Notes under the pieces: model-generated | Told to the model about the DNA's origin: nothing | The model's input: the letters and a program-made list of their open reading frames with translations, nothing else | The model's database searches: none | Translations under genes and position numbers: made by a program | Shown here: piece after piece, positions 2,966 through 11,571 of the stretch | Position numbering within the stretch: position 1 is the stretch's first letter | Layout: every line of letters begins with the position of its first letter | Source: Verrucomicrobiota bacterium | Lineage (GTDB): Bacteria; Verrucomicrobiota; Verrucomicrobiia; Limisphaerales; J093 | DNA length: 44,112 nt | Direction: 5' to 3' | NCBI GenBank assembly: GCA_022710935.1 | Contig: JAKLFY010000053.1 | Span: 1-44,112 of the forward strand

Positions 2966-3717
2966 CCTGGCTCTTCTTCGTGCTGGCCGGTTGCGTGGCC
3001 CAACTCATCGATGGGTCTCTGGGCATGGGCTTCGGGCTCACCAGCTCGACGCTCCTCCTCACTTTGGGAACCTCGGCCGCGGTGGCTTCCGCAGCCGTGC
3101 ACGCCGCCGAAATCGGCACCACGCTCGCTTCGGGCATCTCGCACTGGCATCGGGAGAATGTCGACCGCGAGATTCTCATCCGGCTGGCTGTGCCGGGCGG
3201 ACTCGGGGCGGTGCTCGGGGCGACCTTTCTGTCGTCGATCGATCTGGGCGGGAGCAGGATCTACATCTCCACGATTCTGCTGCTCCTGGGCTTCGTCCTG
3301 TTCTATCGCAATGTGTTCCAACCTGCCGTCCAGCCCAACGTCGCGGATGTCGCGCACCCTCTCTACCTGAGCTTCCTCGGGGCCACGGGCGGCTTCGTCG
3401 ATGCCTCGGGCGGCGGCGGATGGGGACCGGTCGTGACCCCGACGCTTCTGGCCACCACCCGCCACGAACCCAGAAAGGTCATCGGCACCGTCAGTGCCGC
3501 CGAGTTCATCGTCGCCCTGTGTGCAAGCCTCGGTTTTCTCCTGAACATCAGGCGGCTGGATATCGATTGGACCGCCGTGGGCGGGCTTGCGCTGGGCGGC
3601 GTTCTCATGGCGCCCATCGCCGCCAAACTGGTGTCGTCGCTGCCGCGCAGGCCCCTCGGCATCGCTGTGGCCGTGGGAATCATCGCGGTCAATGCCGTTC
3701 GGCTGCTGGGCGCCTGA
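2962..3717 (+). CDS. TSUP-family (TauE/SafE) membrane transporter
   Basis: A 251-aa polytopic inner-membrane protein of the sulfite exporter TauE/SafE (TSUP) family. It has the two-repeat layout of that family: an N-terminal half starting with a helix and the glycine-rich QLIDGSLGMGFGLTSS, and a second half opening with GFVDASGGGGWGPVVTP. About seven to eight hydrophobic segments are visible. Members move sulfite, sulfate, sulfoacetate or other anions, and the substrate cannot be read from sequence. The ATGA overlap with cysNC argues for coupled expression and so for a sulfur anion, probably sulfate uptake or sulfite export; that is inference. A 54-base gap separates it from the PduS-like gene. 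Confidence 0.88.
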   Translation: MTWLFFVLAGCVAQLIDGSLGMGFGLTSSTLLLTLGTSAAVASAAVHAAEIGTTLASGISHWHRENVDREILIRLAVPGGLGAVLGATFLSSIDLGGSRIYISTILLLLGFVLFYRNVFQPAVQPNVADVAHPLYLSFLGATGGFVDASGGGGWGPVVTPTLLATTRHEPRKVIGTVSAAEFIVALCASLGFLLNIRRLDIDWTAVGGLALGGVLMAPIAAKLVSSLPRRPLGIAVAVGIIAVNAVRLLGA

Positions 3718-3771
3718 CGAGGCAAGAATTCGGCTCGCCAACTCGGGGCAGGCTCCTATCATCCCGCACTC

Positions 3772-5088
3772 ATGACCTTTGCGGAGAAAGTCAGATTGGC
3801 CGGTGTGGTGGGCGCCGGGGGCGGCGGTTTCCCGACACACATCAAGATGTCGGGCAAGGCCGATACGGTCATCGCCAACGGCGCCGAGTGTGAGCCGCTG
3901 CTGCACAAGGACGCCGCGATCATGGCACACCATGCCGCGGACGTGGTCCGCGGCGTCGAACTGGCGATGGAGGCGGTTGGGGCCAAGGACGGCGTCGTGG
4001 CCGTCAAGGGCAAGAAGCGGCAGGCGGTCGAGGCCGTGCAGCAGGCCTGCAAGGGCAGCCGGGTCCGCCTCCAGCTCCTCGGCGACTATTACCCCGCAGG
4101 CGATGAGTACGACTTGGTCCACACGGTGACCGGGCGCCTCATCCCGCCGACCGGCATTCCGCTCCAGGTCGGTGTCGTGGTGTGCAATGTCGAGACGCTG
4201 GTCAACCTGGTGCGAGCCGACGCCGGGCAGCCTGTGACGCACAAGACCCTCACTCTGGCCGGGGCGCTGCGCGAGCCCGTGACGATCACCGTCCCCCTGG
4301 GCACGACCTATCGTGAGGCTTTCGCCGCCGCCGGCGGGCTCACCACCGACGAACCGGTGCTCTGTCTGGGCGGACTCATGATGGGCGAGACCACCCTCGA
4401 CCTGGATACCCCGATCACCAAGACCGCCACCGGCGTGGTCGTCCTCCCCCGCAGCCATCACATCATCCGGCGAAAGCTCACACCCCCCAAAGCCCAAAAC
4501 CAGATCGGCAAATCCGCTTGCGACCAATGCCGCTACTGCACCGAGTATTGCCCCCGCTTCCTCCTCGGTTACGCCGTCGAGCCGCACCAGGTCATGCGCA
4601 CCCTCGCCTTCACCGCCACCGGCGCCGAGTACTGGAACCAATGGGCTGCTCTCTGCTGCTCGTGCGGACTCTGCACTCTCTACGCGTGCCCGGAAGAGCT
4701 GTTCCCGAAAGAGGCCTGCGACAACGCCAAGGCCGAAATGCGCAAGGCCGCCCTCAAGTGGACCGGCAAGGCCGACGTCAAGCCCCACCCGATGCATGAG
4801 GGGCGCCGCGTGCCGATCAAGACCCTGATGAAGAAGCTGCACGTCATCGAATACGATCATCCGGCCGAGTGGCGCGAGGCCGCCCTGAAGCCGCAGCGGG
4901 TCGTCCTGCCCCTCAAACAGGGCGCCGGCGTGGCCAACGTTCCCCTGGTCAAGGCGGGCGACCGCGTCGCCGCCGGCCAGCCGCTGGGAGAGATCCCCGC
5001 CAAGTCCCTCGGGGCCGTCTTGCACGCGCCCTTTGCCGGGCGCGTTGTCTCCGTCACCGACCGCATCGTTTTGGAGAGAGCATCATGA
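3772..5088 (+). CDS. PduS-like RnfC-family flavo-iron-sulfur oxidoreductase
   Basis: A 438-aa protein resembling PduS, the cobalamin reductase-type protein of microcompartments, and the RnfC/NuoF fold. It begins with the glycine-rich nucleotide/flavin site GVVGAGGGGFPTHIK (about residues 12-26) and NGAECEPLL. An SLBB-like segment (TITVPLGTTYREAFAAAGG) follows, then two 4Fe-4S cluster motifs: CDQCRYCTEYC (C250, C253, C256, C260) and CSCGLCTLYAC with C306 last (C298, C301, C306 and a Cys at 295/296). The C-terminal 60 residues form a barrel-sandwich hybrid-like domain. In microcompartments PduS passes electrons from NADH, probably through the iron-sulfur shell protein PduT. Here the next gene is PduT-like and overlaps the stop codon, which strongly supports this identity over a bare RnfC. 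The start ATG at 3772 has no clear ribosome binding site; a TATCAT at 3757 could be a -10 box. Confidence 0.88.
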   Translation: MTFAEKVRLAGVVGAGGGGFPTHIKMSGKADTVIANGAECEPLLHKDAAIMAHHAADVVRGVELAMEAVGAKDGVVAVKGKKRQAVEAVQQACKGSRVRLQLLGDYYPAGDEYDLVHTVTGRLIPPTGIPLQVGVVVCNVETLVNLVRADAGQPVTHKTLTLAGALREPVTITVPLGTTYREAFAAAGGLTTDEPVLCLGGLMMGETTLDLDTPITKTATGVVVLPRSHHIIRRKLTPPKAQNQIGKSACDQCRYCTEYCPRFLLGYAVEPHQVMRTLAFTATGAEYWNQWAALCCSCGLCTLYACPEELFPKEACDNAKAEMRKAALKWTGKADVKPHPMHEGRRVPIKTLMKKLHVIEYDHPAEWREAALKPQRVVLPLKQGAGVANVPLVKAGDRVAAGQPLGEIPAKSLGAVLHAPFAGRVVSVTDRIVLERAS

Positions 5089-5636
5089 ACGAGAAATCCA
5101 TTGGTTTGATCGAGTTATCGAGTGTCGCCGCCGGATTCGAGGTGGCGGACACGATGTTGAAGGCCGGCAACGTCCGGCTCCTGTTGTCCCGCTCGATCTG
5201 CTCGGGCAAGTACATGGTGCTGATCGGCGGCGACGCCGCCGCCGTCGAAGCCGCCGTCGAGGCGGGCGCCGTGGCCGCCAACGGGTGTCTGATCGACTCG
5301 TTCACCATCGCCAACGTCCATCCCGAGGTGATTACCGCCCTGGGCCGAACAACTCCGGCCGAACCCGACGGCGCCCTGGGCATTCTCGAATCGTTCAACG
5401 TCGCCACCCTGCTCCAGGCGGCCGATGCCGCCGCGAAAGCCGCCGCCGTCACGCTCCTCGAGATCCGGCTCGCCATGGCGCTCGGCGGAAAGGCCTTCTG
5501 CACCATGACCGGCGATGTCGGGTCCGTCCAATCGGCCATAGCCGTCGGGCGGCGTCTGATTGCGGACGCCGGAGTGCTGGTCAACGCCGTGGTCATCTCG
5601 CGTCCCCACCCCGACGTCTACCGGGAAGTGATCTGA
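5085..5636 (+). CDS. PduT-like tandem-BMC-domain shell protein
   Basis: A 183-aa protein with two bacterial microcompartment (BMC) domains: residues about 4-90 (SIGLIELSSVAAGFEVADTM) and about 95-180 (GALGILESFNVATLLQAADA). It ends RPHPDVYREVI, as PduT-type trimers do. Residue C39 in the motif SICSGKY sits where PduT proteins carry the Cys that holds a 4Fe-4S cluster at the pore of the trimer, so this copy is likely redox-active. The ATG at 5085 overlaps the stop of the PduS-like gene (ATGA), giving a coupled pair. No BMC-H hexamer, BMC-P pentamer, signature enzyme, aldehyde dehydrogenase or PduL-type gene is present in the window. It may join a compartment encoded elsewhere in the genome or act outside one. 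Confidence 0.9.
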   Translation: MNEKSIGLIELSSVAAGFEVADTMLKAGNVRLLLSRSICSGKYMVLIGGDAAAVEAAVEAGAVAANGCLIDSFTIANVHPEVITALGRTTPAEPDGALGILESFNVATLLQAADAAAKAAAVTLLEIRLAMALGGKAFCTMTGDVGSVQSAIAVGRRLIADAGVLVNAVVISRPHPDVYREVI

Positions 5637-5694
5637 TTTTGGCCGCAGCCCTGAAAGGGAACGCCGAAGCGCGGGCAAACCGAGTGCCCGAGCG

Positions 5695-8006: not shown

Positions 8007-8329
8007 GATGGGGGGAACATGGCAGGCCGCGGCGCGGATTCAAGTCGTGCCATCATCGTGGTGATTTGTGACCGCGCAAGCCTTGGAGTTGCCCTAGCCG
8101 CATTTCTCACCAACTCTTGCGCAGCAGCGCCGGCGCAGCGCGGCGACCGGCGCGTGCGTCGCCGCCGGACGTGCGTAAGGTTCCCGTTGCGTTGGTTGCG
8201 GCTTTGCCGCGCCGCGGCCTCCCTCGACTTTGGGTCAGCCTCCGACCATCTGCAGGTCCGCTGCCGGCGGTCGGCGCCAGGGCACATGTGTTGATCATTG
8301 AGCCTCCGGCATGCATAGTCGCTTCCGCC
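8007..8329. other. intergenic region carrying repeat R100 copy 1
   Basis: These 323 bases lie between the truncated minus-strand gene and the esterase-GH16 gene, divergent promoters being expected here. The only structure seen is the 100-bp repeat at 8118-8217. A long frame continuous with the downstream gene begins at 8117, but its first 71 codons are repeat-derived and Arg/Ala/Pro-rich, so they are not taken as coding. Confidence 0.5.
8118..8217 (+). repeat. 100-bp dispersed repeat R100, copy 1
   Basis: This segment aligns without gaps to the reverse complement of 11472-11571 with five mismatches in 100 bases. It contains a perfect 8-bp stem GCGGCGAC/GTCGCCGC (8140-8147 with 8158-8165, 10-base loop) that is fully conserved in the other copy, where the loop carries a change. 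A second small stem, GCGGC-TTT-GCCGC, is also conserved. In both copies the repeat is just upstream of an exported-protein gene and oriented the same way relative to it. Confidence 0.85.
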
Positions 8330-9904: not shown

Positions 9905-11514
9905 TGCGGAGGTTTCTGTTTGCCGGCAGGGTCTGACTCGCGAAGGCCGCGCAAATGGCCAAAGACTACTCCTCGCTCTGGGCGGCCCGAGGGCATAATC
10001 AGCGTCATGGCATCGACATCCTGTTTGGTTTGCCAGCGCACGACCAGCGTCGGGTTCGATGCGCCGCGCGACAGGCCGTCGGCCTCTACGGCGTAGGTGT
10101 CGCCCGCCTTCACATCATGCGACTGGATGAAGCATCCCCATTTCACGCCAGTCGCCCGACCGGCACCGCTCCCCACGCTGGGGTCCCAGGTGAACTTTCC
10201 CGACGATGTTGTCTCGTCCTGCCAGGCCCCGAACTCCGCGGGCAAGGCCCTCGTTTCCTCGGCGGACGGATGTGCGAAGTCCGGATTGCGGGCGAGGTTG
10301 GTGAGCGCGCCGGCGGCCCGAAGTCTGGCGATCTCGTCTTGGGCGGCGCGGATCGGGTCGCGCACGCAGGCGATGGCGCGCGTGATGCCGGGCATCGCTT
10401 CCTCCCAAAGACGCCCCTTGCCGACGCTGTTGGGCACGTTCAGCGGCTTGCCCCACCAACGGCATTGCTCGCCATAGACCCACACGTATTCGTCGGCGGC
10501 ATCACGCGCGAAGCCCAGGTTCCGTTCCAGCCGGTCCAGCCGCGAGCCATCCAACGGGCCGCGATAATACCGATTTGTCGCGTCGTTCAGGAACATATCG
10601 AGGTAGAAGCCGAATCCGGCCTGCACCTGCTGGCGATACTTCGGACGGTTGGCCTGCGAGACCAAACGAATGGCGTCGCCGTTCCACGAGCGCATCGCGT
10701 GGGCCGCGCGCAGGTACTCCTCGGCGCTGTCCATGTAATAGCCGTTCTCGCAGCCGTCCACCAGCACCATCGCGGGCGGCGCGGCGTCGAGCATCCCGTC
10801 GATGAACGCGGGCAGCAGACCGTAGCCGGACGAGGCGAGGATCGTGTCCGGTTCAGCACTGGCGCCGGCTTTGAGATTGATGCTGTTCAGCCAGAGCGCG
10901 AGCAGGACGGCGTCGGGGAATTCCCGCGCGATCCCTCGGACGAACTGGCCGCCGCGTCTTCGTGCCAGGGCCGCCGTCTCGGCGAACGCGCGCCCTTTGG
11001 CGGCGTCCAACTTGAACTGGTGGGCGCCATAGGACTCGAAATCGATGGCCAGACCCTTGCTCCCGCTCTGCTTCATCAGCCAGGCACAGTGGCCGGCCTT
11101 GTCTGCCAGCGCCGCCCAGCCGGCGTCATCCGCCCAGTCGAGAGTGCCGGGAGTGGCATTGAAGCGGACAAAGTTGTCGGTGAACCGGGCGAAAGCACAG
11201 GACTTCAGATCGGCAAGCGCTGGCTCGAGCCACTCGCGTTTCCAGGGGCGGCCGTCCCAGAGCGACTCGCTGCTGAGCGCGCCGCCCTGATCGTCCTTGG
11301 CCTCGACCTTGAACATGACGCCGTCGAACGGGGTGGTCTGTTCCATCTCCCGCCAACTCTCGCGCAGTAAGGCAGTCGCCGGGATGTCCCATCCCAGCTC
11401 GATGAACTTTCTTCGAGGCGTTGTGGTGTCGCCATCTGCGAAGACCTGGGTGCCGGTGCAAAGCACAAGCACCGCAGCGCGGCAAAGCCGCAACCAACGC
11501 AACAGGACCCTCAC
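9826..11514 (-). CDS. exported glycosidase-like TIM-barrel protein, probably 3'-truncated
   Basis: From the GTG at 11514 this gives 562 aa with a good signal peptide (MRVLLRWLRLCRAAVLVLCT, cleavage after FA at residue 25). An ATG at 11688 would add 58 residues, mostly translated repeat. The main domain (about 35-420) reads like a TIM-barrel glycosidase of unassigned family: KFIELGWDIPATALLRE, TTPFDGVMFKVEA, GLAIDFESYG and MVLVDGCENGYYMDSAEEYL. Acidic residues in FESYG and DGCENGYY are candidate active-site groups. From about residue 420 a jelly-roll domain of the carbohydrate-binding type begins (NLARNPDFAHPSAEE, GVKWGCFIQ, PTLVVRWQTK). It loses protein-like character after about nt 10010, and the last residues are antisense of the esterase-GH16 gene. 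I infer a truncation of the binding domain; the catalytic part looks intact. Confidence 0.6.
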   Translation of the reverse strand: MRVLLRWLRLCRAAVLVLCTGTQVFADGDTTTPRRKFIELGWDIPATALLRESWREMEQTTPFDGVMFKVEAKDDQGGALSSESLWDGRPWKREWLEPALADLKSCAFARFTDNFVRFNATPGTLDWADDAGWAALADKAGHCAWLMKQSGSKGLAIDFESYGAHQFKLDAAKGRAFAETAALARRRGGQFVRGIAREFPDAVLLALWLNSINLKAGASAEPDTILASSGYGLLPAFIDGMLDAAPPAMVLVDGCENGYYMDSAEEYLRAAHAMRSWNGDAIRLVSQANRPKYRQQVQAGFGFYLDMFLNDATNRYYRGPLDGSRLDRLERNLGFARDAADEYVWVYGEQCRWWGKPLNVPNSVGKGRLWEEAMPGITRAIACVRDPIRAAQDEIARLRAAGALTNLARNPDFAHPSAEETRALPAEFGAWQDETTSSGKFTWDPSVGSGAGRATGVKWGCFIQSHDVKAGDTYAVEADGLSRGASNPTLVVRWQTKQDVDAMTLIMPSGRPERGVVFGHLRGLRESDPAGKQKPPHYDSFGVYLKSRMMTSTSWPSFGGRP

Positions 11515-11571
11515 GCACGTCCGGCGGCGACGCACGCGGCGGTCGCCGCGCTGCGCCGGCGCTGCTGCGCA
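11472..11571 (-). repeat. 100-bp dispersed repeat R100, copy 2
   Basis: Inverted partner of 8118-8217, 95 percent identical over 100 ungapped bases. It spans the proposed GTG start of the TIM-barrel gene: the repeat's 3' part is read as the N-terminal region of that signal peptide (MRVLLRWLRLCRAA). The 8-bp internal stem is conserved. Confidence 0.85.

Follow-up and report, generated by a model that had tools for sequence, protein, structure and literature searches.

The window analyzed here, a stretch of 44,112 bp, is the entire contig C209 of a Verrucomicrobiota genome. Near one end it carries two forward-strand genes: a pduS-like gene (positions 3772–5088; 438 aa), and a pduT-like gene (5085–5636; 183 aa) for a BMC-T shell protein with two tandem BMC domains. 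Both open reading frames are present and joined as an earlier note on this DNA described them, through an ATGA stop-start overlap of pduS and pduT (5085–5088, forward strand) that is read directly from the sequence. The same −4 overlap recurs in many relatives. Since the window is the entire contig, the 3.7 kb upstream of the pair runs to the contig end. A homologue search of all 44,112 bp found no other BMC-H, BMC-P, aldolase, PduL, AldDH, or LDH homologue; PduT, with its two PF00936 domains, is the only shell component of the window, which lacks PF03319 domains; this is insufficient for a BMC, as in a satellite locus.

Domain searches divide the PduS-like protein into four parts: Complex1_51K (residues 7–147); SLBB (161–205); a Fer4_17 dicluster domain (249–310); and an RnfC_N barrel-sandwich at the C-terminus (371–433). 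Two tetracysteine motifs (4519–4689, forward strand), formed by C250, C253, C256, and C260 and by C295/C296, C298, C301, and C306, are predicted to hold two [4Fe-4S] clusters, and 36/36 aligned homologues retain all eight cluster cysteines. The 51K-SLBB-dicluster core is homologous to that of RnfC (RsxC). In the solved RnfC, however, RnfC_N is N-terminal, so its C-terminal position here identifies the first gene product as PduS-like rather than as RnfC. Thus the protein combines the features by which PduS is recognized: the 51K, SLBB, and Fer4_17 domains with a C-terminal RnfC_N, the two tetracysteine motifs, and an adjacent pduT. One studied PduS homologue contains FMN as well as two [4Fe-4S] clusters; this flavoprotein is reduced by NADH and co-purifies with PduT (PMC2982820). 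The window protein is likewise predicted to be a PduS-like NADH:acceptor flavo/Fe-S protein.

The second protein contains PF00936 twice, and its best solved relatives by phmmer are 3nwg (E 3e-50) and 3n79, named PduT (E 5e-42). Residue C39 (TGC codon at 5199–5201, forward strand), within the motif RSICSGKY, is the predicted pore ligand of a [4Fe-4S] cluster. The segment R-S-I-C-S-G-K around C39 does not vary in 36/36 relatives; a Cys of 3nwg occupies the position aligned with C39; and C39-S-G-K-Y matches, in a tandem-BMC protein, the published PduT pore pattern C-P/S/A-G-K/R/S-Y/F (PMC6325248). The claim of a tandem-BMC shell protein with a predicted cluster cysteine is therefore borne out. 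Against the NCBIfam PduT equivalog TIGR02526 the protein scores 125 bits, below the cut-off of 250, in contrast to PduT of the PDU and GRM metabolosomes. This score argues for a separate subfamily, hence the name PduT-like.

A genome of the same genus (G071) carries the pair at 95% amino acid identity over concatenated PduS and PduT, and dN/dS against that genome (0.15 for PduS, 0.08 for PduT) indicates purifying selection. The two genomes have in common a block of 93% nucleotide identity (window positions 3708–5689, forward strand), made up of the pair with about 60 bp upstream and about 50 bp downstream. Outside this block the flanks, within the region fetched around the G071 pair, are unrelated save for one weak 98-bp match. 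In the window, the pair is preceded by cysD, cysNC, and a TauE-like transporter gene. Because only the pair block is common to both genomes, adjacency to cysDNC is incidental; conservation of this arrangement, which the earlier note had suggested as a line of inquiry, is lost already within the genus, and the neighborhood is most simply a matter of chance. A link between the pair and sulfate assimilation was dropped, as cysDNC is not beside the pair in the same-genus genome.

The same note described the pair as having no microcompartment locus, which is true of the window and wrong for the genome. Contig C45 encodes DeoR, PduL, three BMC-H proteins, and AckA; contig C227 encodes three BMC-P proteins, AldDH, a class II aldolase, and a 425-aa protein. 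By nucleotide comparison, the ends of C45 and C227 abut on the same-genus locus with 8 bp missing. The joint order is DeoR / PduL, BMC-H, BMC-H, AckA, BMC-H on C45, continuing with BMC-P, AldDH, BMC-P, BMC-P, class II aldolase, and 425-aa protein on C227. This is a complete PVM (Planctomycetes-Verrucomicrobia) locus, whose signature is the class II aldolase (PMC4207490), divided by an apparent 8-bp assembly gap. Its PVM components are the PF00596 class II aldolase, the BMC-P triplet, BMC-H, AldDH, PduL, AckA, and DeoR. A genome-wide search for BMC-H, BMC-P, PduL, and aldehyde dehydrogenase genes thus found them all, in a second, complete BMC locus (three BMC-H and three BMC-P) of the kind that a satellite locus accompanies. 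The remaining PF00936 genes of the genome all lie on C45, and its only PF03319 genes at the C227 end. The same-genus genome also has a PVM locus, for the most part 93–94% identical in nucleotide sequence.

Gene content and order are common to this locus, those of its relatives, and the PVM (PV-BMC) fucose/rhamnose metabolosome of Planctomyces limnophilus and Verrucomicrobia. The window's genome differs in encoding a PduS/PduT accessory at a separate locus. The 425-aa protein (L011, 9264–10541; G000:C227:118263–119540), which follows the aldolase or LDH in most PVM loci, matched no Pfam or NCBIfam family. The window also contains a 100-bp inverted repeat (8118–8217 and 11472–11571; 95% identity), which brackets a stretch of about 3.3 kb and is absent from C45 and from the C227 end.

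Two classes of enzyme were sought in the same genome, a draft MAG (95.7% complete, 4.3% contamination). EutB was not found there, and the only glycyl radical enzyme (GRE) of the genome is a trans-4-hydroxyproline dehydratase, accompanied by its activase; a B12- or GRE-activating role of the pair is therefore unlikely. A diol dehydratase search of the genome gave zero matches, as its control likewise did everywhere. The pair resembles PduS-PduT of the PDU and GRM metabolosomes (Citrobacter/Salmonella Pdu; GRM1b, GRM3, and GRM5) in PduS domain order, in gene adjacency, and in a tandem-BMC PduT with a C-x-G-K-Y pore cysteine (PMC6325248, PMC2982820). Unlike those pairs, it lies far from the shell operon, and searches revealed neither a B12 enzyme nor a GRE associated with a compartment for it to serve.

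The order was sampled with 196 genomes; with carriers counted by the window's type of PduT, 38 of them have the pair, and it is present in 10/10 sampled genomes of the window's own family. BMC-P is found in 37/38 carriers versus 94/158 non-carriers (Fisher p 1.4e-6, kinship ignored). In another family of the class, a BMC-P triplet is present in each of six further carriers (6/6). BMC-P went undetected in a single carrier, G028, a MAG of 80% completeness spread over 460 contigs. NrdD (PF13597), considered as an anaerobic marker, occurs in only 3–4 of the 196 genomes and was uninformative.

Within the order, five genomes have the pair in or adjoining the PVM locus, whereas most have it by itself. 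In other Verrucomicrobiota the pair is placed within or next to a PVM locus in no fewer than four ways: behind the aldolase (L055, L155, L157, L158, L188, and L189); after DeoR, beyond the divergent promoter (L071, L072, L125, L131, L138–L140, L142, L151, L154, L159, L181, and L187); divergent from PduL (L170 and L174); and upstream of PduL (L196, L204, and L205). Remote placement is not an assembly artefact, since two single-contig genomes, each with the pair and one BMC-P triplet, have them at least 1 Mb apart (G098: pair at 2.14 Mb, BMC-P at 0.13 Mb; G294: pair at 2.64 Mb, BMC-P at 1.60 Mb). A tree of concatenated PduS and PduT (92 rows: 27 linked, 38 remote, and 27 undecided; a short search, with some long branches) implies about nine changes of position, at least six of them by well-supported branches. 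Remote pairs have no neighbors in common beyond one Opitutae clade.

Main locus and pair also differ in their upstream regions. All 43 of 43 PVM operons carry upstream of PduL a 23-bp direct repeat stretch with a 10-bp repeat unit, AGATTTTGnAAGATTTTGCAAGA, just ahead of TTGACA. The DeoR-PduL intergenic region of the window's genome (L006; G000:C45) carries it, as do 42 other PVM loci; judged by sequence and position, it is plausibly a candidate operator of the divergent DeoR. The repeat is absent upstream of the window's pduS. Across pduS upstream regions, 1/36 exceeded the 99% shuffle threshold, and that one is AT-rich. A DeoR-type operator common to the pair and the main operon was accordingly dropped (1/36 versus 43/43). 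The absence of the repeat ahead of pduS argues that the pair is probably under separate control, and its expression probably starts at a promoter of its own rather than depending on the main-operon operator.

Together, the full PVM locus in the genome, the co-occurrence with BMC-P in 37/38 carriers, and the linkage to PVM loci in relatives make it very probable that pduS and pduT form a satellite locus belonging to a PVM-type BMC (class II aldolase; fucose/rhamnose-type) encoded on other contigs. Of the two possibilities offered by the earlier note, this evidence strongly supports a satellite of a compartment elsewhere, and disfavors a compartment-independent conduit, for which the only carrier without detected pentamers is G028. 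Known BMC satellite loci (Axen 2014; Sutter 2021) likewise place a shell gene at a distance from a main locus having BMC-H and BMC-P. The present pair differs from them in joining a redox enzyme to its shell partner, and in belonging to a module that, in relatives, shifts between remote and main-locus sites.

Electron export across the shell has been proposed for PduS-PduT (PMC2982820), and the PduT cluster midpoint of +99 mV suits an acceptor of NADH-derived electrons (PMC6325248). In the PVM organelle, the PduT trimer would sit among the shell hexamers with its [4Fe-4S] cluster in the pore, and PduS would dock at the inner face of the shell. There PduS, by way of FMN and its two [4Fe-4S] clusters, may oxidize the NADH that the encapsulated CoA-acylating (lact)aldehyde dehydrogenase produces; the electrons would pass to the PduT pore cluster and then to an acceptor in the cytosol, so that NAD+ is restored within the organelle. 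By analogy with characterized homologues, such an export step with NAD+ recycling is the most likely function, and we favor it with reasonable though far from full confidence. The pair would then probably carry electrons over the PVM shell, and so keep the organelle working.

The same satellite may have another job: electrons could flow into the lumen, an encapsulated partner could be reduced (for example, lactaldehyde to propanediol), or the shell could be protected from oxidation. The direction of electron flow is not set by sequence, and Axen et al. considered that PduS may help convert aldehyde to alcohol in some loci (PMC4207490). Against this, the same midpoint makes PduT an acceptor relative to NADH (PMC6325248), and alongside the pair there is no gene for an encapsulated reductase partner. 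Such a role is unlikely, though it deserves more weight than any scheme that detaches the pair from the PVM shell. One such scheme has PduS and the PduT trimer acting in the cytosol as a redox conduit with no shell. The 2-kb locus is indeed isolated, with no fixed neighbors and no operator in common with the main locus, and G028 has the pair with BMC-P undetected; yet BMC-P accompanies the pair in every other carrier, physical linkage to PVM loci is frequent, and G028 is the fragmentary assembly noted above, which makes a cytosolic conduit quite improbable. Slightly less probable again is service to a second compartment of Pdu, Eut, or GRM type, whose locus the draft assembly would lack. PduS and PduT classically reside in PDU and GRM loci (PMC6325248), and this genome is a draft of 95.7% completeness; but its other BMC-H and BMC-P genes all belong to the PVM locus, EutB and a compartment-type GRE are wanting, relatives have the pair within PVM loci, and single-contig G098 and G294 hold it with one BMC-P triplet. 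That the pair is a functionless decayed remnant or part of a contaminating contig, as its isolated position and the MAG contamination might suggest, is scarcely credible given the pair and PVM locus of the same-genus genome, the low dN/dS values, and the intact cluster ligands.

The satellite reading bears on how PVM organelles recycle NAD+, a task predicted for a lactate/malate dehydrogenase encoded in PVM loci (PMC4207490). In the window's genome no PVM LDH gene lies between the aldolase and 425-aa genes, and none was found genome-wide at E 1e-20, a further difference from the described PVM metabolosome. PduS/PduT is therefore its only recognized BMC-associated candidate for NAD+ regeneration. 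PVM LDH went undetected in more than half of the sampled PVM genomes, and so is not strictly defining for PVM. LDH is rarer with the pair (5/37 versus 43/94 PVM genomes; naive p 5e-4), but this anticorrelation is not seen at the family level (p 0.23), nor in shuffles within families (p 0.35). LDH and pair coexist in five genomes of the order and in several Opitutae loci (L151, L154, and L187), and both are missing from 51 PVM genomes; the pair is thus not the sole answer to NAD+ recycling. Strict replacement of PVM LDH by the pair was rejected on these grounds; replacement in a looser sense is only suggestive. PduS/PduT occurs in 57/57 GRM5 loci, which also process fucose/rhamnose (PMC6325248).

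Individual loci vary around the aldolase. In L078 (11408–12409) a different LDH/MDH-family gene, 33% identical to PVM LDH, lies between aldolase and pduS. DUF3368 (PIN-like) genes take the LDH position, from aldolase to 425-aa gene, in L102 (10002–10565) and L103 (10609–11115). In L050 (6153–8221), the interval from the PVM aldolase to pduS contains LutB- and LutC-like genes (lactate oxidation), which suggests that lactate is oxidized further beside the organelle.

These findings bear on the balance of NADH and NAD+ within a closed metabolosome shell, for which the PduS/PduT export idea has so far been hard to disentangle from the chemistry of B12 and GREs. The compartment served here is aldolase-based and has neither chemistry, and the pair is present in some relatives and absent from others. 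Comparing matched genomes that have or lack the pair would allow the PduS/PduT role to be tested directly. A broader proposal is tentative, and we consider it possible but doubtful: that the PVM organelle of Verrucomicrobiota comes in two redox versions, one recycling NAD+ by internal LDH, the other by a separately encoded, separately regulated PduS-PduT trans-shell wire, exporting electrons, the pair being a portable module that repeatedly entered and left the main locus. Taken singly, the parts are already known, as is the satellite concept. A description of PduS/PduT as a recurring, mobile redox accessory of PVM compartments was not found in the searchable literature, which was covered at the level of paper text.

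Close relatives of the pair (PduT identity 66–71%) occur in Syntrophobacterales, Latescibacterota, and Vicinamibacteria (L194, L195, and L197), a possible sign of transfer to other compartment types. In L194, the pair relative lies near a distant AldDH and a BMC-P.
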